Source: Onishia taeanensis
GTDB taxonomy: Bacteria; Pseudomonadota; Gammaproteobacteria; Pseudomonadales; Halomonadaceae
DNA length: 64,000 nt
Direction of reading: 5' to 3'
Assembly (NCBI RefSeq): GCF_013349955.1
Contig: NZ_JABVXC010000007.1
Location: 62,001-126,000 of the forward strand
Below, in pieces: positions 31,172-46,100 of the stretch. Each line of letters starts with the position of its first letter. Position 1 is the first letter of the stretch. The notes below the pieces were generated by a model. The model made no database searches. It worked only from the letters and a program-made list of their open reading frames with translations, and was not told where the DNA came from. Both the position numbers and the translations under genes were made by a program.

Positions 31172-33235
31172 GGTCACACGCTGTCCTGGCTCGGCCCCGG
31201 CATGGGGTTCTAGCAGGTAGATGCCCGCGTTCTTGTCAGAGGGCGTGCCGGCCGCCAGCACCATGCCTTCCGAGATGCCGAAGCGCATCTTGCGCGGCGC
31301 CAGGTTGGCGACCATGACGGTCAGGTGCCCCTCGAGAGCTTCCGGTGCATAGGCGCTGCGTATGCCGGAAAAGACGGTGCGGGTCTCGCCGCCCAGATCC
31401 AGGGTCAGCTTGAGTAGCTTGTCGGCGCCTTCGACATACTCGGCCTTGGCGATGCGGGCGATGCGCAGGTCGACCTTGCTGAAGTCCGCGAAGCCGATTT
31501 CTTCGGCAATGGGGTCATCGGCCAGCGGCCCCTTGGCGGTCTCTTTCATTTTTTTCTCCTCGGCGAGGTCTTCCTTGGAGGCCTCGATCATGCCATCGAT
31601 CTTGTCGCGTTCGATGCGCGTCATCAGCGGCTTGAACTTGGCAATCTGGTGATCCAGCAATACCTCGCGGCGGCTTTCCCAGTTAAGCAACTCGAGCTGC
31701 AGGAAGGCCTTGGCATCATCGGCCATACCGGGCACCACCGGGGCGAGATAGACCATCAGCTGACGGAACAGATTGATGCCCACCGAGCAGATGTCGAGCA
31801 CTTCTTGTTCGCGGCCTTCCTGCTTGGCAAGCACCCAGGGCTCGGCCTCGGCGATATAGGTGTTGGCCTCGTCGGCGAGCTCCATGATGCGGCGCATGGC
31901 GCGGCCGAATTCGCGGGCCTCGAACTCCTCGGCGATGGCATCGCCGGCGGCGATGAAACGAGCCACTAGCTGGGGCTCCGCGCAGTGGGCGCTTAGCTGC
32001 CCGCCGCCGAGCTTCTTGACGAAGCCGGCACAGCGGCTGGCGATATTGACCACCTTGCCCACCAGGTCGGCGTTGACCCGAGCGGCGAAGTCTTCGAGGT
32101 TGAGATCCAGGTCATCGACCCCGGCGGTCAGCTTGGCGGCGAAGTAGTAACGCAGATACTCAGGGTTCAGGTAGTCGGCATAGGTGGCGGCCTTGATGAA
32201 GGTGCCACGGGACTTGGACATCTTGGCGCCGTTGACGGTGACGAAACCGTGGCAGTTGACCGCCGTCGGCGTGCGGAAGTCGGCGCCGTGCAGCATGGCC
32301 GGCCAGAACAGGGCGTGGAAGTAGACGATGTCCTTGCCGATGAAGTGATAGATCTCGGCGTCGGAATCCGGCTGCCAGTAGCTGTCGAAATCCAGACCTT
32401 CGCGCTCGCAGAGATTCTGGAAGCTGGCCAGGTAGCCGATCGGCGCATCGAGCCATACGTAGAAGTACTTGCCCGGTGCACCGGGGATCTCGAAGCCGAA
32501 ATAGGGGGCATCGCGGGAGATATCCCACTCGTTGAAGCCGGATTCGAACCATTCCAGCAGCTTGTTGCGGATCTGCGGCTGCACATGGCCGTCATTGATC
32601 CACCCCTGCATGAAATCGGCGAAGTCAGGCAGCTTGAAGAAATAGTGGGTGGAGCTCCTCACCTCGGGGGTGGCGCCGGAGATGGCCGAGACCGGGTCGA
32701 TCAGCTCTGCTGGCGTGTAGGTCGCGCCGCAAGCTTCACAGTTATCGCCGTATTGATCATCGGTCTTGCACTTTGGGCAGGTGCCCTTGATGAATCGGTC
32801 AGCAAGAAACAGGCCCTTGACCGGGTCATACATCTGCTCGATGTCACGGGTCGCGATATGTCCCTTGTCGCGAAGCCGGGTATAGATCAGCTCGCTGAAA
32901 TGGCGGTTCTCCGCTGAGTGAGTCGAGTGATAGTTGTCGAACCCCACGCCGAAGCGGGCGAAGTCGTCCTGGTGGTCGCGGGAAACGCGCTCGATCAGGG
33001 CCTCAGACGTGATGCCTTCCTGTTCGGCGCGCAGCATGATGGCGGTGCCATGGGCATCGTCGGCGCAGACATAGTGGCACTGGTGCCCGCGACTTTTCTG
33101 AAAGCGCACCCAGATATCGGTCTGAATGTATTCCAGCAGATGGCCGAGGTGGATCGCACCGTTGGCGTAGGGCAGGGCGCTGGTGACCAGGATCTTGCGT
33201 GAATGGCTTGCGGAGTTCGACGCGGAGTTCGACAT
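31169..33235 (-). CDS. metG: Methionyl-tRNA synthetase
   Basis: Charges tRNA-Met. The 688-residue protein has the class I HIGH variant HLGH at 29-32, the zinc knuckle CPKC (152-155) with C165 and C168 of CEAC, the KMSKS loop near 340, the anticodon-binding helical domain and a C-terminal dimerisation/tRNA-binding (EMAP-like) domain from about 585 ('[29 protein letters not shown]' region). The first residues ([10 protein letters not shown]) come from a short 12-bp duplication. No strong Shine-Dalgarno precedes the ATG. The apbC/mrp gene, next to metG in E. coli, lies about 26 kb away here. Confidence 0.97.
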
Positions 33236-33355
33236 AGTGGCGCGGGGTTCCCGTAACGTAGTGCGTGAGGGACGAAGAGGCCTCGTCTAGGCAGCAACCG
33301 CCGCTGCCGGGCATCGTCCCTGACGTGATGACCATGAAATCAGCAAAAGATTGTA
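33236..33355 (-). promoter_or_regulatory. metG leader with nested, mutually exclusive hairpins and candidate -10
   Basis: Upstream of metG on the minus strand a TACAAT hexamer (33350-33355) is a plausible -10, without a clear -35. The region between it and the ATG contains AGGGACGA (33268-33275), which can pair with TCGTCCCT (33314-33321) enclosing an inner GGCAGC/GCTGCC pair (33290-33308), or alternatively with TCGTC at 33283-33287. The two pairings exclude each other. Whether this regulates translation is unknown; the rest of the 308-nt interval up to 33543 shows nothing I can assign. Confidence 0.4.
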
Positions 33356-33543
33356 GCATTTTCGCCGCTGCCTGCATCCGCCGCCGGTGTCGGTGAAGGG
33401 CGACGTTTGGCCTGCCTCATGCAAGGGGGTAGAGTCCTTCCACGTTGCCTGAGGCGGCGCCCATGGATTCAGGTCGTGCCCGGCAAACTCATCGCGCTAA
33501 CGTCACGCATGGCTCAGTGATCCTTCACATGAGGTAAATTCGT

Positions 33544-33813
33544 ATGCGTTTCACTCCTATCCTTGCCCTGCTGGCGCTGACTACTCTGGTCGCCGGCTGT
33601 GCCGGCGGCGCCATCGCGCCCAACTACACCAGCCAGAACCCCGATATCATGCGCATCGGCAACGAGCGCCCGGCGGATCCACAGGTCAAGACCGAAAACC
33701 TCGGCTCCTACTGCGTCAAGGTCACCGAGACCTGGAGCGAGCAGGGCAAGACGCCGGACGGTAAGACGCTGTGGGCGCTGGACACCCAGCGTAACGTGGT
33801 GCCCTGTAACTGA
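33544..33813 (+). CDS. Small predicted outer- or inner-membrane lipoprotein
   Basis: The 89-residue protein has a signal peptide ending in the lipobox LVAGC (Cys19), followed by GGAIAPN and a small globular domain with two further Cys (YCVKV and VVPC near residues 57 and 88), which could form a disulfide. The mature residue after Cys is Ala, with no Asp at +2, so outer-membrane sorting is likely. GAGG sits 8 nt before ATG. It is a single-gene unit with its own strong terminator. Function unknown. Confidence 0.85.
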   Translation: MRFTPILALLALTTLVAGCAGGAIAPNYTSQNPDIMRIGNERPADPQVKTENLGSYCVKVTETWSEQGKTPDGKTLWALDTQRNVVPCN

Positions 33814-33857
33814 GCCCCGTCGGGTCGCTATCCATCAATCCGCTATCATGATCGAGG

Positions 33858-33887
33858 ACCCGCGGCGCAATGCGCCGCGGGTTTTTT
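33858..33887 (+). terminator. Intrinsic terminator after the small lipoprotein gene
   Basis: A 12-bp GC-rich stem (ACCCGCGGCGCA with TGCGCCGCGGGT, 33858-33869 and 33871-33882) is followed by a run of six T residues. It lies 45 nt after the stop codon. The loop is very small, so in practice the inner pairs would open. Confidence 0.93.
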
Positions 33888-33999
33888 GTAGGTGCCCGGT
33901 AGTAGAGCTCCTTTTCAGGTGTCTTGCCTGAGCGTTTGCCGTTCCGGCACGTTGCAATGCCTTCCGTGCTATGGGCTATCACATGTCCCGCTAGGCTAG

Positions 34000-35205
34000 T
34001 CAAACCAGTGACAGCAGGGCGCAGGTCAGCAGGTCATTATCGTAATAGGGCGCACTGTCTTCGCTGATCAGCCGAGTATCGATCATCGTGATGCCCCGCT
34101 CGGCCCAGCGGGCGGCCAGTTCCTCGATTGTGAGCTCCAATGCATAGTCGCCGCGCCGGCTATCGAGGAGCACGAAGTTCAGCAGCTCGTCGGTCGTGGC
34201 GGTTTCGCCGGCATCCAGGCGCAACTGGTCCAGCAACGTATCGAGCTGGCGCTCGAGACTCATGCCGAGCTGCTCGGGATCGACCCCGGTATTGGGAATG
34301 AATACCTTGGGGCTGGCATTGTCGCGGATTGCCTGACCCACGCCTGCCGGCAGCAGGTTGGCGATCAGGCTCGAGTAGAAACTGCCGGGTGGAAAGCAGA
34401 TCAGCTCTGCCGACGCGATCAGTCGGCGGTTCTTCTCGCGCAGTTTGGCGGTGACGGGCACATGAGCCTCCGGCTGTCGGGATAGCCCGAGGCCGACGAT
34501 CGGCGAGCTGAGCGGTACCACCTCCTTGCCGGTGAGGCGGTGTTGTCCAAGCAGGGTCTCGCCGTTTTCCAGTTTGGCCGCCAAGTGATAATCCCGGTTG
34601 ACGATGGCCCGAACCGTGCCGCGCACATGCACCAGCTTGGAAAATAGGAAGATGATCGGGTCCAGGTGCTGATGATTGTTGAGGTAACCGCCGGCCAGGA
34701 TCAGGTTGCCGATACTGGCCCCGCGCAGGTCGAAGTCGTCCGGCTTGGCGGCGCAGAAATAGCCTAGCTGGTGGCGAATCAGCTTGCGCATGGGGTTGGC
34801 GATGTCGCGCATCAGCGGGTCGCTGCCATCGGCCAGTGCCGACAGCATCCGCTCCAGCTCTGTAGGTGACTGGTCCTTGGGCAGGCGATATTGAAATAGG
34901 CGGTATACCTCGGGATGCCCAAGTATCGAGTCATCGGCCAGTGCCATCAGGCGACTGCGCAGGTCACCGATGGCCGGCATGCGAAACGCATCGCGCAGCT
35001 TGGCGGAGCTGCCGCCGGAGTCGAATGGTGTGACCAGGTGAATCGAGTTGTGGGTGTAGTGCTGCAGATTCTTAGACAGGCCGTTGAGTGCTGACCCCCC
35101 GCTGAAGAAGAGCAAGCGTGGACCGAGTTCGGGCGTCTTTTGGCAGCGTCGGATCCGCAACGGGTCCGGCACCTGGGCACTGCGTGTGACCCTGACATTG
35201 ATCAT
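34000..35205 (-). CDS. CofD-related protein of the GAK gene set
   Basis: The 401-residue protein belongs to the CofD/YvcK superfamily, members of which transfer or bind phospho/nucleotidyl compounds (2-phospho-lactate transferase; UDP-sugar-binding YvcK). Seen: 'FFSGGSALNGLS' (33-44), 'TPFDSGGSSAKLRDAF' (59-74), 'PAIGDLRSRL' (77-86), 'NLILAGGYLN', 'ICFPPGSFYSSLIANLLPAGV' and 'FIPNTGVDPEQ'. These match the CofD-like protein of the so-called GAK system as I remember it from TIGRFAMs. ATG 35205 is chosen for its AGGA site 7 nt upstream; longer starts to 35340 are unconserved. It is divergent from the other GAK genes across a 142-nt shared control region. Confidence 0.85.
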   Translation of the reverse strand: MINVRVTRSAQVPDPLRIRRCQKTPELGPRLLFFSGGSALNGLSKNLQHYTHNSIHLVTPFDSGGSSAKLRDAFRMPAIGDLRSRLMALADDSILGHPEVYRLFQYRLPKDQSPTELERMLSALADGSDPLMRDIANPMRKLIRHQLGYFCAAKPDDFDLRGASIGNLILAGGYLNNHQHLDPIIFLFSKLVHVRGTVRAIVNRDYHLAAKLENGETLLGQHRLTGKEVVPLSSPIVGLGLSRQPEAHVPVTAKLREKNRRLIASAELICFPPGSFYSSLIANLLPAGVGQAIRDNASPKVFIPNTGVDPEQLGMSLERQLDTLLDQLRLDAGETATTDELLNFVLLDSRRGDYALELTIEELAARWAERGITMIDTRLISEDSAPYYDNDLLTCALLSLV

Positions 35206-35347
35206 CTTGGCGTCCTGAAGAGTGGCGCTTCGCTGAGTTTCAACGATCATCCACGCCATATCTGTCAAGTCAATGACTGTAACCAGCGGTTCATGGAGTT
35301 GATGGTATGATTTTGCACATATCTGAATCGTGCGCAGCAAGGATCCT
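35206..35347. promoter_or_regulatory. Divergent control region of the GAK cluster
   Basis: The 142-nt spacer between the CofD-like and Nudix genes must contain promoters in both directions. Visible: a TTGACA hexamer on the minus strand (35262-35267 region), a perfect 5-1-5 palindrome AGTCAATGACT at 35268-35278 and AACC-AGC-GGTT at 35281-35291. On the plus strand TTGATG (about 35297) precedes a TATCTG/TATCTGAA stretch at suboptimal spacing. The adjacent palindromes are candidates for an operator; no regulator gene is present in the cluster. Confidence 0.45.
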
Positions 35348-35848
35348 ATGCCCTACCGACAAACCGACTTGCTACCTGAGGTGCGCAACACGGCGCGCGC
35401 CCTGATTCTGCGTGATCATCAGGTGTTGCTACTGCTCAAACAGGACGAGCGCTATGCCCTGCCTGGAGGCGCACAGGACACGGGGGAAACGCTTGAAGAT
35501 GCCTTGCAGCGAGAGTGCCTTGAAGAAATTGGTACCCATGTCGATGCACCGAGACTGGTGACGGTATGCGATGTGTTCAAGCGCAAAGACACCGTGCCGC
35601 CCAGCCGGCGCCACTTGGTGGATTTCATTTTTCTCTGTCTGCTGCCCGCCGACTATATCGCCGGCAACGGGCCTCAGCCGGACAAGCGTCAGTTGGACGT
35701 GCGCTGGGTCGATGTAGCAGCGCTCCCCGAGCTTACGTTTACCCCTGAATATCTCTCCACCTGGTTGCCGTCGCTGGTTTGCGCCGCCGAACAGGGCTCA
35801 ACCACTGTGGCTTATGCTGGCGCTTTTCATGACGACCCGACCGCCTAA
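35348..35848 (+). CDS. Nudix hydrolase of the GAK cluster
   Basis: The 166-residue protein has a complete Nudix box beginning GAQDTGETLEDALQRE and ending EEIG (residues about 42-64; GX5EX7REX2EEXG), so it should hydrolyse a nucleoside-diphosphate-linked or polyphosphorylated compound. The rest ('RALILRDHQVLLLLKQDERYALPGG', 'LDVRWVDVAALPELTFTPEYL') is a standard Nudix fold. AAGGA lies close upstream of ATG 35348. It is the first gene of the seven- or eight-gene rightward cluster and overlaps the next gene by 20 nt. The substrate cannot be told from sequence. Confidence 0.9.
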   Translation: MPYRQTDLLPEVRNTARALILRDHQVLLLLKQDERYALPGGAQDTGETLEDALQRECLEEIGTHVDAPRLVTVCDVFKRKDTVPPSRRHLVDFIFLCLLPADYIAGNGPQPDKRQLDVRWVDVAALPELTFTPEYLSTWLPSLVCAAEQGSTTVAYAGAFHDDPTA

Positions 35849-37472
35849 AAGTATCCAGGACAACCTGCGCTTCCTGTGTGTTGAAGTGGACTCGCAGTTG
35901 GCCAGTTTCGAACAGTTTCTGCAGACGCCCACCACAGCCATTGTTCACCGGCTTCTCGATCGCCGTGGCTATGCCTATAACCTCAAGATGCGCATCCATA
36001 ACGACTGCATGAAGCGGTTGTCGGCCAAGAAGCACCGGCGGAGCAGTCTGCCGCAGATGCTTCGCAGTATCGAACTCATTGCCACCGATCTCGAACGCCT
36101 CACCGAGCTTACGCGGGACTGCATCAGGCAGTTGCAGGAGATAGACGATCTGGCAGGGCTCGAACCGCAGGCGCTGCGCGCCATGGTGCAAAGCATTCGC
36201 AGCGGCATTCAGCTCGTCGAGCCGGCGATCGGCGAGAACGATACGCCCTTGGCCCTGCGGCTTGGGCAGTTGCAGAACGGCCTCGAGGAAGCCTATCGCC
36301 AGCGTCTAGCCAGCTATGTTGCTGCCCTGAAGAAGAAGGACAATACCGAGGAGCTGACGCGGGGCCTCTTCGTCGCTCATGCCATTCGCCAGATGGCGGC
36401 GACGCTTATGCACATCAGCGAAGTGATTATCTCGGCCAACCTCGGCCAGCCGGTCAACTTCGAGCGCTATCACTCCCTGCAGTCGCTGATTGATGACATT
36501 GATACCCCGGATGAGGCGCTGCGCATCGAGCCGCTGGCTGAGACGCGCTCGGGCAGTGGGATCTCCGGTATTCGCTCGCCGAATGACCAGAACAACGGCT
36601 ATGTCGCTATCTTCAAGGACGGCGTCAAGCGCAAGGTGAAGGAAGAGCGTCAGGGCGTCGAAAGCTGGCACGAGATCTATCCGGGCCTGGCGCCGAAGAT
36701 TCTGTCCTATCAGAAGCGGGGGCAGTCCGCGGCCCTGCTGATCGAGCATCTACCCGGCCTGACGTTCGAGCACTTGCTGCTCAATGAGTCGTCCGACCTG
36801 GTCGATGAGGCAGTGACCTATTTGACTCGCACGCTGCGCTCGGTATGGCAGGAGACCTTTACCCCCAAGAGCGTGGCCGCACGCCATATGCAACAGCTTC
36901 AAAAGCGCCTGGACGACGTTTACAAGATTCATCCTGAGTTTCACCGCGGCGACTTGCGCCTGTGCGGCGTCGACCTGCCCGCTTTTGACACTCTGGTCGA
37001 GCAGGCCAAGGCGCGCGAAGCATCGCTGGTGGCGCCTTTTGCGGTGTATATCCATGGCGACTTCAACGTCGACAATATCATCTATGATCCGCTGGAGAAG
37101 CGAATCAACTTTATCGATCTGCACCGCTCCAGCTACATGGATTATGTACAGGACATCTCGGTATTCATGGTCTCCAACTACCGGCTGCAGATCATGGATG
37201 CCCCGCTGCGTCAGCGCATCATGCGGGTGGCCATGGAGATTTATCGGGTGGCGCGCCGCCACGCCAACCGACAGCAGGACACGACCTTTGAACTGCGCCT
37301 TGCGCTGGGGTTGGCGCGTTCATTTGCGACCTCTACCCGCTTCATCCTGGATAAGTCACTGGCCCGCAGCATGTTCCTGCGAGCGCGTTTTCTGATCGAG
37401 ATGGTGCTGGCGGCGGACATCGGCAAGGCCGACAAGTTTAGAATCCCTCTGAAGGAGATCTTCGTTGACTAA
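35829..37472 (+). CDS. PhoU-like domain fused to an aminoglycoside-phosphotransferase-type kinase
   Basis: The 547-residue protein has two parts. Residues about 5-215 are all-helical with two PhoU-like repeats ('SIELIATDLERLTELTRDCIRQL' and 'LFVAHAIRQMAATLMHISEVIISAN'). Residues about 240-540 form an APH-type kinase: 'GYVAIFKDGVKRKV' nucleotide-binding strand, 'LLIEHLPGLTFEHLL' hinge, Brenner motif HGDFNVDN at 409-416 and metal-binding 'FIDLHRSSYMDYVQDIS' with Asp430. Both catalytic Asp residues are present, so small-molecule or protein phosphorylation is expected. An upstream ATG at 35814 is possible. It overlaps both neighbours, implying coupling. The PhoU assignment rests on pattern only. 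Confidence 0.8.
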   Translation: MTTRPPKSIQDNLRFLCVEVDSQLASFEQFLQTPTTAIVHRLLDRRGYAYNLKMRIHNDCMKRLSAKKHRRSSLPQMLRSIELIATDLERLTELTRDCIRQLQEIDDLAGLEPQALRAMVQSIRSGIQLVEPAIGENDTPLALRLGQLQNGLEEAYRQRLASYVAALKKKDNTEELTRGLFVAHAIRQMAATLMHISEVIISANLGQPVNFERYHSLQSLIDDIDTPDEALRIEPLAETRSGSGISGIRSPNDQNNGYVAIFKDGVKRKVKEERQGVESWHEIYPGLAPKILSYQKRGQSAALLIEHLPGLTFEHLLLNESSDLVDEAVTYLTRTLRSVWQETFTPKSVAARHMQQLQKRLDDVYKIHPEFHRGDLRLCGVDLPAFDTLVEQAKAREASLVAPFAVYIHGDFNVDNIIYDPLEKRINFIDLHRSSYMDYVQDISVFMVSNYRLQIMDAPLRQRIMRVAMEIYRVARRHANRQQDTTFELRLALGLARSFATSTRFILDKSLARSMFLRARFLIEMVLAADIGKADKFRIPLKEIFVD

Positions 37473-38349
37473 CCCCAACATTGGTGTGGTCGGTATTCCG
37501 GGCAAGTGGTCCACCGAGGTGCTGGCCGATGCCGTGGAAGCGCGAACCGGTAACCGCCTGGTGATCGACATGGCCAAGGTCGCCCTGGACCTGAGTAGTG
37601 GCGCCTTGCACTTCCAGGGTCAAGACCTCGCTGAGCTGGATGCCCTGATCGTCAAGAAGATCGGCGGCGAGTACAGTCCCAATACGCTCGACCGGCTGGA
37701 GTTACTGCGCATGGCCGAAGCTAGAGGGGTCAAGGTCTTCAGTGGTGCTGAGAATATCCTGCGCCTGATCAATCGGCTGAGCTGCACCATCAGCTTGCGC
37801 AAGGCCGGCATTCCGATGCCGGAAACGCTGGTCACCGAAGATGTCGACCAGGCCGCGGCGGCGGTTCGCGAGTATGGGGAGGCAGTGTTCAAGCCGCTGT
37901 TTTCCACCAAGGCCCGCGGCATGTGCGTGATCAAGGCCGATCAGCCCAAGCGCGAGCTGCGCCGGGATATTGAGGCATTTCGTCGCCACAATCCGATGAT
38001 GTATCTGCAACGCAAGGTTGCACTGCCGGGCCGCGACCTGGGGATGGTGTTCCTCGCCGGGCGCTATCTGGGGACCTACGCACGGGTTTCCCAGAGCGAT
38101 ACCTGGAATACCACCATTCACAGTGGTGGCCGCTATGCTGCCTATGAGCCACCCGAGTCGATGATCGAGTTGGCTCGGCGAGCCCAGGCACCGTTTGGCA
38201 TGGATTTCACCACCGTCGATGTGGCCGAGACAGCGGAAGGGCCGGTCGTTTTCGAGGTATCGGCATTCGGTGGTTTTCGCGGAGCCCTCGAAGGAGCTGG
38301 CATCGATGCGGCGGCAGCCTACACCGACCATGTGTTGGCCTCACTATGA
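37465..38349 (+). CDS. ATP-grasp enzyme of the GAK system
   Basis: The 294-residue protein resembles RimK-type ATP-grasp ligases: an N-terminal pre-ATP-grasp domain ('NIGVVGIPGKWSTEVLADAVEARTG'), then 'AVFKPLFSTKARGMCVI' (nucleotide-binding loop) and a C-terminal 'DFTTVDVAETAEGPVVFEVSAFGGFRGALEGAGID' segment where Glu and Asp/Asn-type residues normally hold Mg-ATP. Here the usual E-x-N is E-V-S, so the second metal residue differs. Family role: ATP-dependent ligation (acyl-phosphate intermediate) of a carboxylate to an amine or other group. The start is TTG at 37465 with AGGAG 7 nt upstream, overlapping the kinase gene by 8 nt. Confidence 0.85.
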   Translation: MTNPNIGVVGIPGKWSTEVLADAVEARTGNRLVIDMAKVALDLSSGALHFQGQDLAELDALIVKKIGGEYSPNTLDRLELLRMAEARGVKVFSGAENILRLINRLSCTISLRKAGIPMPETLVTEDVDQAAAAVREYGEAVFKPLFSTKARGMCVIKADQPKRELRRDIEAFRRHNPMMYLQRKVALPGRDLGMVFLAGRYLGTYARVSQSDTWNTTIHSGGRYAAYEPPESMIELARRAQAPFGMDFTTVDVAETAEGPVVFEVSAFGGFRGALEGAGIDAAAAYTDHVLASL

Positions 38350-39512
38350 ACGATACGATCAACAATGGCCGTCTAATCAGCGTGGAGGAGGCCGCCCAGG
38401 CGCTTTGCGGCGATGTCAGCCTGCTCGAGACGCCCCTGATGATGGATGTTGGGCGCCGCATTCTAGCCATTCGCTCCAATTCGCGCACCTTGCTCGACTC
38501 CCTGCGCCGCTACTTTGCCGCCTACCTCGCACCGGACGGCGTGCCTGATATCGAGGTGCTGGCCATCGAGGGCACACCGCCGGCCATGTCGCTGAACTTC
38601 ATCGACTGGGCTCGCGAGCCCGGCAAGACGGGCCGTAAGGACAGCTATGTCGACCTGTTGGGCGGGCGACTGTTACGCAAGGTGCGCACCGGCATGGTGT
38701 TCCTGCAGAGTGATACCTGGCGCATTGCCGCTGGCCCTTGTGAGGCCAACGACAATCAGGTCATCAACTTCATCAATGCCCAGTACATGAATGACCTGCA
38801 GCGGCATGACTGGCTGATCTGCCATGCTGCGGGGCTGGTGCGTGGCGAGCGCGCGGTGGCCGTTGCCGGCTTTTCCGGCGGCGGCAAGTCGACGGTCATG
38901 CTGCGTGCCATGGAGCATCCTTCGCTCGATTATTTGACCAACGACCGGCTGTTTATTCGCCAAGACGAGCAGGGCGTGCAGGCCGCGGGTATTCCCAAGC
39001 TGCCGCGCATCAATCCTGGCACCATCGTGCATAGTGAGCGCCTGTCACCGCTGGTTTCTGCGGCGCAGCGCGAGCATTGGCTTGCCATGCCGAGGCAGGC
39101 GCTGTGGGATCTTGAGGAAAAGTACGATGTGATGATCGACGAGCTGTATGGAGCCGAGCGTATGCGACGCGAGGCCCGGTTGGCGGCGGTGGTGATTCTC
39201 AACTGGCGGCGCGACGGCCAACAGCCGTTGCGCTGTGAGCGGGTGGACCTCAACCAGCGACCTGAACTGCTGGACGCACTGATGAAATCCCCAGGGCCCT
39301 TCTATCAGGATGCTCATGGACGATTCCTGAGTGACCAGGTGCCGCTTGACCCTGAGCCCTATCTGGCGGCGCTGGGTGAAGTGCCCGTCTACGAAGTCAG
39401 TGGCACGGTCGACTTCGATCTGTTGGCCGACCACCACCTGCCGGCCTTGCTGGGCCTGAAGGGGGACGAGTCGCCAGAGAGGGCAGAGCGAGAAGAAGGC
39501 AGAGCGCCATGA
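38346..39512 (+). CDS. HprK-related kinase B of the GAK system
   Basis: The 388-residue protein has a P-loop GFSGGGKST at 175-183 inside an HPr-kinase-like fold ('LICHAAGLVRGERAVAVAGFSGGGKS', 'YLTNDRLFIR' Walker-B-like strand, 'GIPKLPRINPGTIV' region). HprK proteins phosphorylate or dephosphorylate a Ser on a carrier protein; this 'related kinase B' family is known to me only by name from TIGRFAMs, and its substrate is unknown. No HPr gene is nearby. Both ends overlap neighbours by ATGA (4 nt), so it is tightly coupled to the ATP-grasp and the SixA-Nudix genes. Confidence 0.85.
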   Translation: MNDTINNGRLISVEEAAQALCGDVSLLETPLMMDVGRRILAIRSNSRTLLDSLRRYFAAYLAPDGVPDIEVLAIEGTPPAMSLNFIDWAREPGKTGRKDSYVDLLGGRLLRKVRTGMVFLQSDTWRIAAGPCEANDNQVINFINAQYMNDLQRHDWLICHAAGLVRGERAVAVAGFSGGGKSTVMLRAMEHPSLDYLTNDRLFIRQDEQGVQAAGIPKLPRINPGTIVHSERLSPLVSAAQREHWLAMPRQALWDLEEKYDVMIDELYGAERMRREARLAAVVILNWRRDGQQPLRCERVDLNQRPELLDALMKSPGPFYQDAHGRFLSDQVPLDPEPYLAALGEVPVYEVSGTVDFDLLADHHLPALLGLKGDESPERAEREEGRAP

Positions 39513-40528
39513 GCCGGCAACCGATACATCGAGAGCTCATGCTGCTGCGGCACGGCAAGTCGGACTGGTCGCAGCCGGTAGCGGATGAGCAGCGGCCCTT
39601 GAAGAAGCGTGGCAAGCTCGGTGTCCAGCGCATGGGCGCCTGGCTGGCCCAGCAGGCGCAAGTGCCCGAGGCGGTGCTGGCCTCCCCGGCGCTGCGGGCC
39701 AGGGTCAGTGCCGAGAAATGCCTCAAGGCCATGGGCGAGACGACCGATGGCCTGGAAATGGATCCGGCCCTCTACCATGGAGCGCCAGAAACGCTGGTGG
39801 CGCGCATCGCCCGCACGCCGGACACCATCCAGCGCCTCATGCTGGTGGGACATAAGCCGGATCTTGAAGATTTGCTGCACTATCTGTTGCCCGAGCCACC
39901 GGCGCTGGCAAGTGACGGCAAGCTATTGCCTACCGCCAGTCTCGTCCGTCTCGCGATCGATGGTTCCTGGTCGCAGCTCGCCCCGGGTGCCGCTCGATTG
40001 TTGGATATACGTCGGGCGCGGGAGCTTCCCAGGCACTTTCCCTTTCCATTTCCCGATGGCCCCGAGCGTCGTGAGCGTCCAGCCTATTACTATGTCCAGT
40101 CGGCGGTCGTGCCCTATCGGGTGCACCAGGGACGGCTCGAGGTGCTGGTGATTGGCTCGAGCAGCAACCGCCATTGGAGTCTTCCCAAGGGCATTGCCGA
40201 GCCGGGGCTGAGCCTGGAAGCCTCTGCCCGCAAGGAGGCCCTGGAAGAGGCCGGCATCGAGGGAGACATCGATGCTGCGGCGCTGGGTTACTATCATTAC
40301 CGGAAATGGGGCGGGTGCTGCGAGGTTACCGTCTTTCCCATGCGCGTCACTCGGGAATTGGCCGACCAGGCACTTCAAGAACCGCAACGGGCGCGGCAAT
40401 GGATGCCGGCCGAGCAGGCGGCCGAATGCCTTCGCCAGCCAAGCCTCGGTGCCATGGTGCACGAGCTGTCGAGCCGTCTTGCTTCAGCCGCTGCTGAAGC
40501 ATCCCCGGCCAAGAGGCCCTCATCATGA
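39509..40528 (+). CDS. SixA-type histidine phosphatase fused to a Nudix domain
   Basis: The N-terminal half (about 8-165) is a histidine phosphatase of the SixA group: 'LMLLRHGKSDW' with catalytic RHG at 14-16 and 'LMLVGHKPDLEDLLHYLL' with the second His. The C-terminal half (about 190-325) is Nudix: 'AVVPYRVHQGRLEVLVIGSSSNRHWSLPKGIAEPG' region, then 'SARKEALEEAGIEGD'. The Nudix box deviates, with Leu where the first Glu is usual and Lys for Arg, but retains the EALEEAG catalytic Glu pair. The combination resembles mycobacterial MutT1 with the domain order reversed. Overlaps both neighbours by ATGA. It could strip pyrophosphate and phosphate from the same metabolite. Confidence 0.87.
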   Translation: MSRQPIHRELMLLRHGKSDWSQPVADEQRPLKKRGKLGVQRMGAWLAQQAQVPEAVLASPALRARVSAEKCLKAMGETTDGLEMDPALYHGAPETLVARIARTPDTIQRLMLVGHKPDLEDLLHYLLPEPPALASDGKLLPTASLVRLAIDGSWSQLAPGAARLLDIRRARELPRHFPFPFPDGPERRERPAYYYVQSAVVPYRVHQGRLEVLVIGSSSNRHWSLPKGIAEPGLSLEASARKEALEEAGIEGDIDAAALGYYHYRKWGGCCEVTVFPMRVTRELADQALQEPQRARQWMPAEQAAECLRQPSLGAMVHELSSRLASAAAEASPAKRPSS

Positions 40529-41277
40529 CTCAGCGCCGATCCAGTCACCGGCCACCCCGACTGTTGGCCGCCTTGGTACGCCACGGTGACTACCATCAGC
40601 TTCCCGACACCCCCAGCGCTCACCAGCCTTTCCCCCTGACGTCGGACGGGCGTGAGCAGGCCACGCGAGCAGGGGGCGAGCTGCGTGACATGCTGGATAC
40701 CTTCGGCTGTGACCTGGCGCCACAGATCGACAGCTCGAATCTGCTGCGAGCCTGGCAGACGGCCAGCCTGATTCAATCGGTCCTGGCAGAGGGGCGGCAC
40801 GGCGTATCGGTTCACGGCTTCGATGCTCTGGCCGAACGTGGTTTGGGCAGTGCCGCCAATCTAAGTGCCGCGCGGATCGAAGCGGTCATCGCCGAGGACC
40901 CACGCTTTTCATGCTTGCCGGCCAACTGGAAGTCGGACAGCCATTTTCGCTTGCCCCTGCAGGGGGCGGAATCGCTGATGGACGCCGGGGAGCGGGTCGC
41001 AAGCCACTTGACGGCGCAGATACAGGCGTTGCTACGACACGGCGAAGGTCACAGAGAAGGTCACGGAGAAGCTGATGTGCTGAAGATATTCGTGGGTCAC
41101 GGCGCGGCGTTTCGCCATGCGGCCCATCATTTGGGGGTGCTTGCCTTCGATGATATTGCCCGATTGAGCATGCACCATGGCCGGCCGGTCCTGCTGGAAT
41201 ATCGTCAGGAACAGGGCTGGCGTCATATCGCAGGCGAGTGGAAGGTGCGTCGACAGCACGCGCAGTTCCGTGATTGA
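40525..41277 (+). CDS. Histidine phosphatase superfamily protein
   Basis: The 250-residue protein carries 'LLAALVRHGDYHQLP' (RHG at 19-21), 'PLTSDGREQATRAG', 'SSNLLRAWQTASLI' and 'IFVGHGAAFRHAAHHLG' with the second catalytic His, so the phosphoglycerate-mutase-like fold and active site are complete. Compared with family members it contains a hydrophilic insertion (about 172-184) with repeating His/Gly/Glu encoded by two 12-bp direct repeats. It overlaps the previous gene by 4 nt and is followed by 121 nt before the metallophosphoesterase gene. Confidence 0.88.
   Translation: MTQRRSSHRPPRLLAALVRHGDYHQLPDTPSAHQPFPLTSDGREQATRAGGELRDMLDTFGCDLAPQIDSSNLLRAWQTASLIQSVLAEGRHGVSVHGFDALAERGLGSAANLSAARIEAVIAEDPRFSCLPANWKSDSHFRLPLQGAESLMDAGERVASHLTAQIQALLRHGEGHREGHGEADVLKIFVGHGAAFRHAAHHLGVLAFDDIARLSMHHGRPVLLEYRQEQGWRHIAGEWKVRRQHAQFRD
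41044..41067. repeat. 12-bp tandem duplication inside the histidine phosphatase gene
   Basis: GAAGGTCACAGA (41044-41055) is followed by GAAGGTCACGGA (41056-41067), and partly again by GAAGCTGAT. It encodes a His/Gly/Glu/Arg-rich loop in the phosphatase. Confidence 0.9.
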
Positions 41278-41398
41278 GCCTGGCTGTTCTGGGCTTCTGG
41301 CAGATCGTGAGCATGGCCGTGCTGGCTGATGGCTGGCGTCATGCCTATGTCATAAGCGCGTCATACCCTTGATGGCATTTTCAAATGGGAGCCGGATC

Positions 41399-42754
41399 AT
41401 GGCGAATCAATACGCTGACGCAGTGCTTCCACGCTATAAGGGCAAGCGCTGGATTCCCGAGGGGTTGCCCAGCACGGCTGAACCCTGGCTGCTTGGCGGC
41501 GAACGTGCGGCAAGCGATGTGCACCGCCATCGGCACGATTTCTCGCAAGTGATGGCCCATGCGGCTTCAATGAGCCCCTTGAAGTGGCCGAAGCGTCCCG
41601 TCTACTTTGTCTCGGACCCCCATGCGGATGCCGCTGCCTTTACCGCCTCTCTGGTGGCGTCCGGCGGGGTGAAGAAGACCGGCCCCGAGGATAATGATTT
41701 CAAGCTGACCAAGCGCGGCCGCAAGGGCCTGTTCGTGATTGGCGGCGACTGTCTCGACAAGGGGCCAAGCAACCTCGAACTGCTGCGTAGCGTCAAGGCG
41801 CTCTTCGACAGTGGGGCGCGGGTCAAACTGCTGGCCGGCAATCACGACGTGCGCCTGCTGATGGGCTTGCGTGCCCTCGAGGAGCCTCGCTCACCCCAGA
41901 CCGAACACCTCTTCGTGCGCATGGGCAGCAAGGTGGTACCGTTATTGCGCGAGATACACGATACCTACCTCAAGGATCGCAAGAAGCCGTTGAAAGGCAT
42001 CCCGAGCGCTGAGGAATGTCGGCGGCGGCTGTTTCCCTCGGATAACTGGTTCGAGACGTTTCCCCCTCAGGCCGGCCGGCTGATGCTCGAGCGAAACATC
42101 GAACGTGAGCTCTCGCGGATGCGCAAGAAGGTCGACTCCTTCGAAGAGGCCTGCCAAAAGGCGGGGCTTTCCATGCGTGAGGTCTATGCCACGGCCCTGG
42201 AGGCAAAGGCCCAGTTCATGCACCCCAAGGGGGATTTCGCCTGGTTCTTCCGGGCCATGCAGTTGGCCCATCGCGAAGGCTCCTTTCTGTTCATCCACGC
42301 CGGCCTCGACGATGGCATCACTGAAGTGATCGAGAACGAAAGCGTCGAGTACCTGAACCGGATGTACGATGATCAGATCAAGCATGACCTTTTCGAGTTC
42401 TACTACGGCACGTTGGCTAACACCATGCGCACCAAGTACCGTAAGGTCGACTTGCCGCTGACCCGCCAGGGCGTAGACCGCGCCTTCCGGCTGGGAGTAC
42501 ATGCCATCGTGCATGGTCATATCAATCGCACCACCGGGCAGCAGATCATGCTCAGGCAGGGCATGATGCATATCCAGGGTGACATCACCCTGGATCGGAA
42601 TTCGCGACGCAAGGAAGGCCTCGAGGGTCACGGCATGGGCGTCACCATCATTCATCCCGATGGCAAGATTATCGGCATCAGCAACGACCATCCCCACGCC
42701 AAGGTGTTTGAGCCGGCTCGCCACCTCTCACCAGCAGCGATGCTGGATGCCTGA
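41399..42754 (+). CDS. Calcineurin-like (PPP-type) metallophosphoesterase
   Basis: The 451-residue protein contains the di-metal phosphoesterase motifs in order: 'VYFVSDPHADAAAF' (D-x-H, about 69-71), 'VIGGDCLDKGPSN' (GDxxDxG), 'LLAGNHDVRL' (GNHD), 'SFLFIHAGLDDG' (HAG) and 'HAIVHGHINRTTGQ' (GHxN), so it should dephosphorylate Ser/Thr-phosphoprotein, diadenosine polyphosphate or a related ester. A large helical insertion (about 175-290, after GNHD) is unusual for the compact prokaryotic members. ATG 41399 has GGGAG 7 nt upstream; an earlier ATG at 41369 is less likely. It lies downstream of the other GAK genes in the same direction. Confidence 0.9.
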   Translation: MANQYADAVLPRYKGKRWIPEGLPSTAEPWLLGGERAASDVHRHRHDFSQVMAHAASMSPLKWPKRPVYFVSDPHADAAAFTASLVASGGVKKTGPEDNDFKLTKRGRKGLFVIGGDCLDKGPSNLELLRSVKALFDSGARVKLLAGNHDVRLLMGLRALEEPRSPQTEHLFVRMGSKVVPLLREIHDTYLKDRKKPLKGIPSAEECRRRLFPSDNWFETFPPQAGRLMLERNIERELSRMRKKVDSFEEACQKAGLSMREVYATALEAKAQFMHPKGDFAWFFRAMQLAHREGSFLFIHAGLDDGITEVIENESVEYLNRMYDDQIKHDLFEFYYGTLANTMRTKYRKVDLPLTRQGVDRAFRLGVHAIVHGHINRTTGQQIMLRQGMMHIQGDITLDRNSRRKEGLEGHGMGVTIIHPDGKIIGISNDHPHAKVFEPARHLSPAAMLDA

Positions 42755-42819
42755 CGAGCTTTACTTGGCCTCGGTATCTTGGACCCCGCCTCATTCATCG
42801 CAAGGAATCGATTCACTCC

Positions 42820-43095
42820 ATGGACACTGAGAAGACTACGTTCAGACATGAATCCCTGCAGAGCATCAAGGGACTTCAGGAGATCCTGAAGTCGATCACC
42901 AAGGGGCTGGCCAAGGGCGTCCTGTCATTTTCCGACGAAGAAGGTGAGATTCATCTGATGCCCAAGGGACTGCTCAATCTCAAGGTGACGGTGCGCAAGG
43001 AAGACAGTCATCACCGCTTGGATATCCGCATCTCCTGGCAGGACGCTAGACCGCAGGGCAAGAAGCAGCTCCAGGTCGGCCACGACCGAAAGTAA
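42820..43095 (+). CDS. Amphi-Trp domain small protein
   Basis: The 91-residue protein matches, from memory, the amphi-Trp domain: helical N-terminal half ('FRHESLQSIKGLQEILKSITKGLAKGVLSFSD'-like, about 9-40) and an amphipathic beta-strand C-terminal half ending in a Trp ('LDIRISWQDARP', Trp at about residue 73). The domain is frequently paired with the GAK gene set; no activity is known. It might act as a substrate or scaffold. It starts 65 nt after the metallophosphoesterase stop, probably the same transcript, and is followed by a convergent PBP gene 55 nt away. Charged and soluble; no signal or membrane segment. Confidence 0.82.
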   Translation: MDTEKTTFRHESLQSIKGLQEILKSITKGLAKGVLSFSDEEGEIHLMPKGLLNLKVTVRKEDSHHRLDIRISWQDARPQGKKQLQVGHDRK

Positions 43096-43150
43096 CAAGG
43101 CCTTCACTAACCTTTGCGGCCAAAACGCAGCGCCTGGTTCGATTCCTCGT

Positions 43151-46100
43151 TCAGGCATCTTTCCGGCTAAGCTCCCCCGCCATCATCAGCGGTGCAGGCG
43201 TTGGGCGACAGCCCTGAGAACCCGCGGGCATCAGATAAGCAGCCAGCATTGGCTGCATGCTCTTGAGCACCTGAACCGGTAGCGATGAGGTGAAGCGGTA
43301 GTCCTCTGCCTGGCCGCCCAATACATAGGCGGTGAGGGTGCCGAAGTGGCGGTCGCCCAGAAAGAACACGAAGGTCGCGGTGCGGTTGCGTGCTCGGGAG
43401 TCGGTCACCTGACCGGTTCGAGTCACCGTTTCTATACGGTTGTCGCCGGTGCCGGTCTTGCCACCTACCGTCATGGGGCTGCCATCCGGCAGGAGGAAGG
43501 TGCCGGCCAGTCGCCGGGCGGTACCCGCCTCGACCACGCCGATGATGCCGTCACGCAGCACGGCAGCCACTTCCGGTGCCATCACCCTGACGCCGGGTGT
43601 CGAGCGGGAGAAGCGCGTCTCGAAAGGGGTGTCGGTGGCGAAGTGCAGGCCGTCGATGCGTATCGTGGGTTTGCGCACTCCTTCATTGAGGATGATCCCC
43701 ATCAGTTCGGCGAGCGCCGCCGGGCGGTCCCCTGAGCTGCCGATGGCGGTAGCAAGCGAAGGTACCAGCTGTTCGAAGGGATAGCCGAGCAGGGCCCAGC
43801 GCCGGTGCAGGTCATCGAAGGCTTCCACTTCCAGCATGCGCCGGATGCGGCTGTCCCGTGCCTGGCGGTGTCGGGTGCGGACCAGCCAGGCATAGCTCTG
43901 CTGGCGCTCCTCGATGCTGGCCAGCATCACCTCTTCGCGGCTGGCATCGGGGTGAGTGCCTAAATAAGCTAGCAGCCATAGCTCCAGCGGATGGACACGG
44001 CTTAAATAGGCGCGGTCGTTAAGGGAGTAACGGTCGGGGGCGTACTGCCAGTAGAGCGCGTCCAGCTTCTTGTCATCCAAGACCTGATTATCCGCACTGT
44101 CGGCCGATAATGTCTCGCGCAGCAAACGGCGAAATTCATCGGCAGTTTGCTCGGGCATCAGGTAGCGATACGCTGCGGCCAGCCGCACCGGGGTGGTATG
44201 AATGTGACGAAACAACCGCACCAAGCGGGCCTTGGCATCAAGCGTGTGATAGCGCTGCCAGAAGCGGTCGAGGAATATCCGTCCCTCCTGGTCGGCGAAG
44301 CGCGAGATATAGAGGTCACGACGTGGGTCGCTATCATCTTCCAGCAGGCGTCGGTTGTCCGGATTGGCATAGACGTGATGGTTGACCAGGTCACGCAGCA
44401 GTCGCACGAAGGGCAGGTTGATGGACTGGTGCAGCGCATGCTCGAGGGTGGGGCGTCGGCCATTGTCCTCGCGGCGGAAATTCGTGAAGGTATGAATTCC
44501 CCCGCCGGTGATGAAACGCTCGTAAGGGCTCGCCGAGTAACGACGCTGCATGGCCGCCTCGAGCAGTGTCTTCAGCGGCAGATCCGGGTCGCGGATCAGT
44601 TGGTCCACCACCCAGCGCAGCAGAGCATCACGGCGATCGACGTCGACGCGGAGAAGCGCCTCTCGAGGCTGCCCGCTATAGCGTTCATGCAGCTCGGCAA
44701 TGATCTCGAGATAGCTCGCCAGTACTCTCAGCTTCGCCGTTGAGCCCAATTCCAGCTTGCTGTCCTGATTGATGTCAAAGGCGGTGCCGTTGGTGTCGGT
44801 CTGCACGCGCACCTGAAAGCCCTCATCGCTGCGCTCGAAGAGCGTGAAGCTGTAGCGCACCCCGGCGGCGGTCTCGGGTCGATCGAGTAGATGATGGCCG
44901 AAAAGACCCGCCTCGGCCGCAGCCGAGGGATCTTCGAGCCGCTGTAGGTATGCGCTGACCCTGTGCTGAAGGTCGGCGTTGAGGGTCGTGGAGGCTCTCA
45001 GGTCAAGCCGATCAAGCTCGTACAGTGAGACATCGAGCAAGGAAGCCAGCCGCCCGCGAGCCAGGCGCAGCCCCTTATCGGTATCGACCCGCAGCGAGAC
45101 GGGGGCTGACTGGAAGTCGCGGAAATCGAGCGACTGGGCAAGGGCTGCATCGCGCAGCTCGGGGTCGATGAGCCCTTGCTCGGCCATCAGGCGCAGGTAG
45201 GAAGCGCTCAGTTCGGCCAGGTCGTCATGGCCTGCCCGCAAGTAGTGTGATGGGCGCCGCTGGGCGATCATCAGGGCCACCACTTGCCGAAGGGCCTGGC
45301 CGCGGGCGGCCAGAGCCGCGGCGCCAGTCTCATTCGATGCCAGTGCCAGGATGACGTCATCGAGCTCGGCGCCGAACCATACCCAGAGACCATCGCCCAG
45401 GCCAAGCACTTCTCCATAGCCCGGTGCGGCGGATAGCGGCACCGAGTTGAGGTAGTCCAGCGCCACGTCCTGACGGGCGGTCAGTGTCTCGGGGCCTTGA
45501 CGGTAGGCACGCACGCTGGCGGATACCATCTGTCTCAGCTTCTCCTGGGCTGACATCGTCAGGCCGCCTGGGGAGTGGCGGTACTTCTCGAGCTGGGTGG
45601 CGAGGGTGCTGCCACCCGACGACTGGCCCGGCAAATTGATCGCTTCACCGACCTGAGAAACGGCGGCGCGGACAAAGCGTGGCCAGTCCACGGCCGGATT
45701 GGCGTAGCGATATTCGTTGTCGAGTAGATCCCGGTTTTCGATGAACAAGAGGCTCTTGAGCACCAGTTCAGGCACCTCTTCGAAATGGGCGAAGTGGCGC
45801 TGCGGATTGGCAAAGTGGTGCATCGTCTCGCCACGACACTCCGTGAGCGCGAGCCCTGCCTGGGTTTTCTCGCGGTAGGGCACGAAGAAGCCGCGGTTGG
45901 CATAGTCGAGCAATGCCGGCGACATGCGCACTTGCTGACTGACCTCGAAGCCGCGTTCTTCCAGGCGTTGCTGCCAGTGCGGCAGACGGGTGTAGCCCAG
46001 GCGCTCGTCGAAGGGACCATGACGGGGAAAAACAAGGCGGTCGCTGGAACCATCCGCCAGGGTGTAGCCAAGCCGCTGAGCGTATTCGGAAATCTCCCGG

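Follow-up and report, generated by a model that had tools for sequence, protein, structure and literature searches.

A GAK-type gene cluster with a putative PhoU–kinase and ATP-grasp core and a possible role in phosphate homeostasis

Four protein families, TIGR04354 to TIGR04357, are grouped in NCBIfam as the GAK system, for which we found no descriptive paper in the open-access literature, a scope that falls short of most subscription papers and preprints. PhoU, a relative of one protein considered below, is central to bacterial phosphate control through a mode of signalling that is still debated, and members of the RimK family of ATP-grasp enzymes modify proteins. For a third relative, YvcK/GlmR, one study describes the Listeria protein as a uridyltransferase with predicted catalytic residues D40, D41 and N198, activity being down ~100-fold in the triple mutant (PMC10128056), and another reports that UDP-sugars are bound by B. 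subtilis YvcK (PMC5482804). Here we examined a 64,000-nucleotide stretch of Onishia taeanensis DNA (hereafter the window; contig NZ_JABVXC010000007.1, positions 62,001 to 126,000), in which nine open reading frames (ORFs) at positions 34000–43095 form a GAK-type cluster.

An earlier note on this DNA had taken the nine genes for one complete phosphate-transfer system and stated that no biochemical function of GAK was established, which is consistent with the open-access literature found. The cluster belongs to a set that has a name in NCBIfam and no explanation; what is new here is the PhoU–kinase core and the phosphate context. With a probability of roughly 0.48, we read the cluster as a module for phosphate homeostasis: a kinase gated by PhoU would act with an ATP-grasp enzyme to build a phosphorylated product, which dedicated phosphatases would dismantle. 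The phosphate link rests on gene context and the chemistry is what we infer, any single chemical scheme standing well below one in two. A name without a function is thereby replaced by a testable claim, that of a PhoU–kinase/ATP-grasp heart which in some relatives lies among phosphate and polyphosphate genes. If true, a PhoU wired to a kinase and served by dedicated erasers would give a direct assay of what PhoU senses.

Composition of the cluster

The window carries all four named GAK families above their curated cut-offs, in agreement with the family labels given in the earlier note. These are a CofD/YvcK-superfamily protein of GAK type (34000–35205, reverse strand; TIGR04357, 538 bits against a cut-off of 340) and, on the forward strand, an ATP-grasp enzyme resembling RimK/MptN with a TTG start (37465–38349; TIGR04356, 455.5 bits against 300), HprK-related kinase B (HprK-B; 38346–39512; TIGR04355, 340.5 bits against 200) and an amphi-Trp domain protein of 91 amino acids (42820–43095; TIGR04354, 55.7 bits against 31). 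Five further forward-strand proteins set the window apart from the named set, each matching no NCBIfam model at its cut-off: a Nudix hydrolase (35348–35848; Pfam NUDIX, 59.2 bits), a predicted fusion of a PhoU domain with an APH/methylthioribose-kinase-like kinase (PhoU-APH; 35829–37472), a SixA-like histidine phosphatase fused to a Nudix domain (SixA-Nudix; 39509–40528), a branch 1 member of the histidine phosphatase superfamily (40525–41277; Pfam His_Phos_1, 54 bits) and a PPP/calcineurin-like metallophosphoesterase (41399–42754; Pfam Metallophos, 30.9 bits). This inventory of enzymes, as first proposed from the ORFs, is borne out by Pfam and NCBIfam, with catalytic motifs retained.

The layout also stands as first described, with the CofD-like gene leftward, the other eight rightward and five rightward overlaps of 4–20 nucleotides. 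Computed with the start positions given here, the overlaps are 20 nucleotides between Nudix and PhoU-APH, 8 between PhoU-APH and ATP-grasp and 4 at each of the next three junctions, the final two junctions being gaps. The word 'complete' needs a caveat, because TIGR04358 (XXXCH), which is linked to the NCBIfam GAK set, perhaps not as a defining member, exceeded its cut-off in 0 of 22 genomes, that of the window included, with one sub-threshold match (genome G069). On the same count, XXXCH was rejected as an absent tenth component.

Conserved order and a putative constant core

Relatives were sought with an alignment of the CofD-like protein in a collection of 84,980 species, each represented by a single genome. 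At least 590 stretches matched the pattern and at least 544 encode a relative; the 80 best of these 544 supplied the CofD-seeded loci, so distant lineages are under-sampled and the Desulfobacterota were not reached. Four annotated plasmid loci were added to this set, further loci were obtained through the ATP-grasp gene and through a phylum-wide sample of 398 genomes, and loci were read with profiles grown from the window proteins. Only loci that hold PhoU-APH as well as ATP-grasp and do not run into a contig end were retained; these 59 include close kin (Thiodiazotropha, Onishia, Cobetia) and are not 59 independent cases.

The exact nine-gene order of the window was found in 16 of the 59 loci, the window among them. 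CofD alone is absent from another 13, Nudix alone from 8, and some other selection of one, two or all three among CofD, Nudix and SixA-Nudix from 15, giving the window order with or without these three genes in 52 of 59 loci. PhoU-APH and ATP-grasp are present in all 59 by selection, followed by HprK-B and PPP (58 each), histidine phosphatase and amphi-Trp (56 each), SixA-Nudix (45), and Nudix and CofD (34 each). On plasmids of the alphaproteobacteria Qingshengfaniella and Pseudooceanicola, the same order appears without SixA-Nudix and, in Pseudooceanicola, also without Nudix; the other two plasmid loci hold CofD and Nudix only, and CofD only. The arrangement is real and not due to chance, because the order recurs across Gamma- and Alphaproteobacteria. 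Halomonas halmophila and H. eurihalina (loci L022 and L083) are among the carriers. The single-system reading had been made to depend on conservation of gene order in other genomes, and that order was found. One record titled as a Halobacteria archaeon (L058) carries a GAK cluster of gammaproteobacterial type and is probably a mis-binned contig.

Gene content across whole genomes points the same way. Among 58 relatives, PhoU-APH occurs in exactly the same 8 genomes as ATP-grasp over its cut-off, weaker ATP-grasp matches to ordinary RimK-type relatives occurring in 50; HprK-B exceeds its cut-off in 7 of the 8, and CofD in 10 of the 58, 6 of which are common with the 8. In the phylum sample, which shares two genomes with the 58 (that of the window and G016), the genomes with PhoU-APH and those with ATP-grasp over cut-off are an identical 13 of 398, and the two genes are adjacent in 13 of 13; a fourteenth genome has a partial, sub-cut-off ATP-grasp match and no PhoU-APH match. 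This co-inheritance and the fixed order argue for a single module, as had been proposed. By the sequence comparisons, the constant core is the predicted PhoU–kinase fusion with the adjoining GAK ATP-grasp enzyme, and not the named GAK set. A fuller core, by profiles and predicted structures, adds the HprK-like kinase, the PPP-type phosphatase, the histidine phosphatase and amphi-Trp, with the CofD/YvcK-like, Nudix and SixA-Nudix proteins as frequent accessories.

Identical genome sets and fixed order also weigh heavily against the idea that these are independent housekeeping genes thrown together by chance, or an anti-phage defence cassette, an explanation we regard as very improbable. It would suit the patchy spread (ATP-grasp and CofD exceed their cut-offs in 13 of 398 genomes and in 1 of 143 genomes of the class, respectively, the latter being the window's own), the plasmid copies in two Rhodobacterales and the low-scoring hit that the Nudix protein has in PADLOC (32.6 bits); the other eight proteins have no PADLOC match at an E value of 0.001. 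With that weak Nudix match alone, the defence cassette was rejected.

The CofD-like gene, listed as a system member in the earlier note, keeps its GAK family match and is an accessory, held by only 34 of the 59 operon loci. Of 32 genomes with CofD apart from the operon, 17 carry an over-cut-off ATP-grasp gene at another site and 15 lack one, several of the 32 being metagenome bins and only ATP-grasp having been sought in the 15. The operon in those 17 lacks CofD; otherwise it is complete, short of several genes or truncated where the contig stops. On the CofD tree, a quick one, at least 17 changes in operon presence are counted, and truncated loci, scored as lacking the operon, raise this count. 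On these data CofD is an accessory that comes and goes. In five other loci (L042, L063, L055, L072 and L096), the sole partner of the CofD-like gene is SixA-Nudix, or a version of it that is shorter or scores lower, and the locus has no operon, which suggests that the pair is a separate two-gene unit.

PhoU-APH was named in the earlier note, which missed its weight as core. An AlphaFold model built from a 26-sequence alignment (mean predicted local distance difference test score (pLDDT) 84.4, predicted template-modelling score 0.60) places residues 10–212 on PhoU of Aquifex (1t72; Z 24.6, root-mean-square deviation (rmsd) 1.9, 202 aligned) and residues 214–552 on 5-methylthioribose kinase (2pyw; Z 20.7, rmsd 4.4, 303 aligned), the top Foldseek matches being aminoglycoside phosphotransferases. 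The N-terminal half is thus predicted to be a complete PhoU domain. The PhoU model TIGR02135 matches 21 of the 26 aligned members (best E value 2.1e-15); the window protein scores 19.2 bits in its N-terminal half against a cut-off of 130.25 and has no Pfam PhoU match, and a relative (L050) reaches 53.6 bits with Pfam PhoU, over the gathering score of 23.5. Stretches of HGDF.VDN type and FIDLHRS are conserved in the kinase half among relatives. The GAK protein resembles PhoU of the Pst–PhoU–PhoR system in its full predicted fold and, in most relatives, in both signature motifs, of which the window retains the first, acidic one; it differs in being fused to a kinase. Among the open-access matches listed, we found no paper on a fusion of PhoU with an aminoglycoside phosphotransferase.

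Phosphate and polyphosphate genes near some relatives

Genes recurring beside the CofD and operon genes of some relatives encode Na/Pi cotransporters, CHAD proteins, Pst-type phosphate-binding proteins and permeases, PhoU, universal stress proteins and CNNM/CorC, a context that the earlier note missed. Neighbour families were defined by clustering and BLAST in this analysis, and representatives were checked against Pfam; the names PstS, PstC, PstA and PstB are our interpretation of the Pfam labels PBP, BPD_transp_1, DUF3333 and ABC_tran. CHAD domains bind polyphosphate, according to one study (PMC6537752). In 30 genomes, chosen by hand among the 80 CofD loci because their flanks were long, near kin included (L044/L087; L051/L086), a Na/Pi cotransporter lies in the locus of 8 against 0.30 expected from 56 Na/Pi genes genome-wide (counted by hand, one below cut-off), and CHAD in 3 against 0.21 expected from 39 genes. 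Eleven phylum-sample loci, reached through ATP-grasp and PhoU-APH, have a single Na/Pi gene and two CHAD genes nearby, where 0.16 would be expected for both families jointly at a background rate borrowed from the 30 genomes. Overall, a phosphate- or polyphosphate-type gene was found in 26 of 110 loci; in five the gene is a Ppx match ~8 kb from CofD.

One relative in the window's own family has a locus of PhoU-APH, ATP-grasp and PPP only, set between Pst/phoU genes and a PhoR kinase gene with a few other genes intervening, a placement that adds to the likeness with the Pst–PhoU–PhoR system. Another GAK cluster terminates beside Ppx/GppA.

Regulatory sites were scanned with a Pho-box consensus and then with a matrix built from known sites. 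Scores above the 99th percentile of controls (14.5) occur in 4 of 85 regions upstream of CofD, 4 of 62 upstream of PhoU-APH and 1 of 46 upstream of Nudix; for CofD, 18 of 85 lie above the 95th. The four strongest sites belong to three Zhongshania relatives and to L049; in the Zhongshania loci (L026, L027 and L041), sites between divergent CofD and PhoU-APH score 18.8–21.2 against 14.5. Because base composition is incompletely controlled, this excess is no more than suggestive.

Several observations weigh against a tie to phosphate. The window and G016, both left out of the 11-locus count, hold no phosphate gene of the families searched; the flanks of the window that were examined comprise metG, Rnf, diguanylate cyclase, peptidoglycan glycosyltransferase and ABC transporter genes, with no Pst gene beside the cluster. 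Loci of Halomonas, Cobetia, Marinobacterium, Zhongshania and alphaproteobacteria were read without finding any family searched. All 17 phosphate-labelled CofD loci fall within two clades of the CofD tree (9 changes on this quick tree, truncated loci again being scored as lacking the trait), so the context counts are not independent; these labels exclude the CHAD gene of L056 and five Thiodiazotropha loci with the Ppx match ~8 kb away. The window has no convincing Pho box, its best matrix score of 8.4 lying under the 8.5 that marks the 90th percentile of 700 control upstream regions. Its second PhoU signature is degenerate, with Arg and Ala where aligned proteins have Glu in 33 of 54 and Asp in 32 of 54.

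Weighing both sides, our best reading is one co-inherited cytoplasmic module that would couple phosphoryl chemistry to phosphate status. The PhoU half would read phosphate or metal status and gate the kinase half, and the kinase and ATP-grasp enzyme might jointly make a phosphorylated small molecule serving as reserve or messenger. HprK-like kinase B may phosphorylate a protein partner, perhaps amphi-Trp. PPP, the histidine phosphatase and the Nudix enzymes would undo these steps and return phosphate, and the YvcK-like protein, where present, could handle a nucleotide-linked form.

Other neighbours were seen as well. CNNM/CorC genes, resembling Mg/Co transporters, account for 31 ORFs in 19 loci (a raw count) and, often paired, adjoin the CofD-like gene or lie close to it, in either orientation (L036, L044, L051, L061, L086, L092 and others). 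Inositol-catabolism genes lie ~10 kb from the Qingshengfaniella cluster, and an inositol monophosphatase gene ~3 kb from the CofD and Nudix genes that alone make up the Alloyangia locus; these are two cases from one order.

Chemistry of the individual proteins

By sequence comparison, the GAK CofD-like protein appears nearer to YvcK/GlmR than to CofD. Up to an E value of 0.01 its only NCBIfam matches are TIGR04357 and TIGR01826 (YvcK; 107.7 bits, under the cut-off of 196), in a library that presumably also holds a transferase-specific CofD model; the Pfam superfamily CofD gives 117.7 bits. Its nearest solved relatives by sequence and profile are 2ppv, 2o2z and 2hzb. At 95% identity of the CofD-like protein, the host stands near Onishia taeanensis, a member of the Halomonadaceae. 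Mapped through the 2o2z alignment, the equivalents of GlmR D40 and N198 are retained as D107 and N328, and the D41 position is Ser; the protein also departs from YvcK/GlmR in lying under the YvcK cut-off and in its pairing with kinases and phosphatases. The ATP-grasp enzyme in turn has the RimK/MptN alpha-L-glutamate ligases as nearest relatives and stays under their curated cut-offs: its best NCBIfam match outside GAK is MptN (151.8 bits against 350), and another RimK/MptN-ligase model gives 98 bits against 143.4. Glu264-x-Ser266 is invariant in 25 of 25 GAK ATP-grasp proteins, the Ser replacing the Asn of the Glu-x-Asn that two solved RimK-like relatives align there.

These likenesses fit a pathway of biosynthesis or salvage for a cofactor or nucleotide-linked metabolite, in which the APH-like kinase would make X-phosphate, the YvcK/GlmR-like protein would add a nucleotide, the ATP-grasp enzyme would add an amino acid, as in the modification of F420 or tetrahydromethanopterin, and the hydrolases would be housekeeping for stray intermediates. 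MptN as the best match outside GAK, D107 and N328 at positions predicted as catalytic in the GlmR study (PMC10128056) and the predicted small-molecule-kinase fold all speak for it. We nevertheless hold it unlikely: 25 of 59 operon loci have no CofD, even if it was located elsewhere in 17 of 32 genomes, the D41 position is Ser, and the PhoU fusion and phosphate neighbourhood are left unexplained.

HprK-B retains His160 before the P-loop, the P-loop SGGGKST and Asn199-Asp200-Arg201 in 28 of 28 relatives. Its profile finds solved HprK (1jb1) at an E value of 0.33, ranked under P-loop ABC proteins, and a single-sequence search gives no match. In three of the 59 loci its gene is relocated downstream. 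Where it has moved in L049, L068 and L092, it adjoins an extra Nudix protein; two of these loci, L049 and L092, also have a divergent ORF of ~380 amino acids at that place, the L049 copy matching the endonuclease/exonuclease/phosphatase family.

Amphi-Trp, a candidate substrate or partner, scores 23.8 bits with the Pfam amphi-Trp model, under its threshold of 27, and has a predicted structure of one helix and four strands (pLDDT 86.3). No clear PDB fold match was seen among 50 of 77 Foldseek rows and three VIA rows, the best VIA match having Z 2.2 and rmsd 3.2 over 43. An HPr-like identity was considered and set aside, there being no HPr in those rows, where absence proves nothing. S12, Q14, D39 and W73 are invariant in 23 of 23 aligned sequences.

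The retained His, P-loop and Asp of HprK-B, the invariant residues of amphi-Trp and its presence in 56 of 59 loci, together with the protein-modifying habit of RimK relatives, would suit a protein-modification switch in which HprK-B phosphorylates amphi-Trp or another small protein, the RimK-like ATP-grasp enzyme adds residues, phosphatases reset the state and the metabolite kinase supplies a secondary input. This we think quite unlikely, given that the amphi-Trp C-terminus varies in length and sequence across the 23, unlike a fixed tail substrate, and that the relative with PhoU-APH, ATP-grasp and PPP only has no HprK-B over cut-off genome-wide and no amphi-Trp at the locus.

The hydrolases keep their presumed active sites. 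Nudix-box residues of the Nudix hydrolase are at least 95% conserved in 46 aligned relatives, as are, in 49, Arg-His-Gly, the second His and the Nudix-box Glu pair of SixA-Nudix (sixA 59.4 bits, under its cut-off of 74.5; Pfam NUDIX 39.3; His_Phos_1 30.4), and, in 49, Arg19-His20 and Gly191-His192 of the histidine phosphatase. Presumed metal-ligand positions of PPP (D83, H85, D127, N158, H310 and H384) are invariant in 6 of 6 relatives.

ATP-grasp kinase, histidine phosphatase and Nudix superfamilies are shared with inositol-pyrophosphate enzymes. A bolder form of the phosphate-homeostasis reading is that GAK might write and erase a novel bacterial phosphate-status messenger or reserve, a counterpart in job and superfamilies of inositol-pyrophosphate signalling, with the PhoU-gated kinase and ATP-grasp enzyme as writers and the histidine phosphatase, PPP and Nudix proteins as erasers; we view it as a long shot. 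The eukaryotic system (PPIP5K, Nudix hydrolases) offers a similar kinase-plus-phosphatase layout and Nudix role. It differs in that the GAK proteins match no inositol-kinase family at the NCBIfam/Pfam thresholds used and the ATP-grasp enzyme is ligase-like; the likeness is one of analogy only.

Divergent transcription would start from the intergenic region at 35206–35347, presumed to be a two-way promoter region, where the one sigma-70-like match is within chance level. Terminator and promoter patterns show no excess over shuffles, and no RNA element reached its gathering score in 33000–44000. The CofD-like ORF is open from TTG 35340 and probably starts at ATG 35205, because relatives begin there in the alignment. 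Read from the sequence, the probable starts are 35348 for Nudix (ORF from GTG 35330), 35829 for PhoU-APH (ORF from ATG 35814) and 41399 for the phosphoesterase (ORF from TTG 41369). Fission, duplication, decay or sequencing errors could each account for split ORFs in three relatives, in which PhoU-APH is divided in two (L044 and L087, both tubeworm endosymbionts), as is SixA-Nudix (L087 and L073, the latter a Methylophaga).

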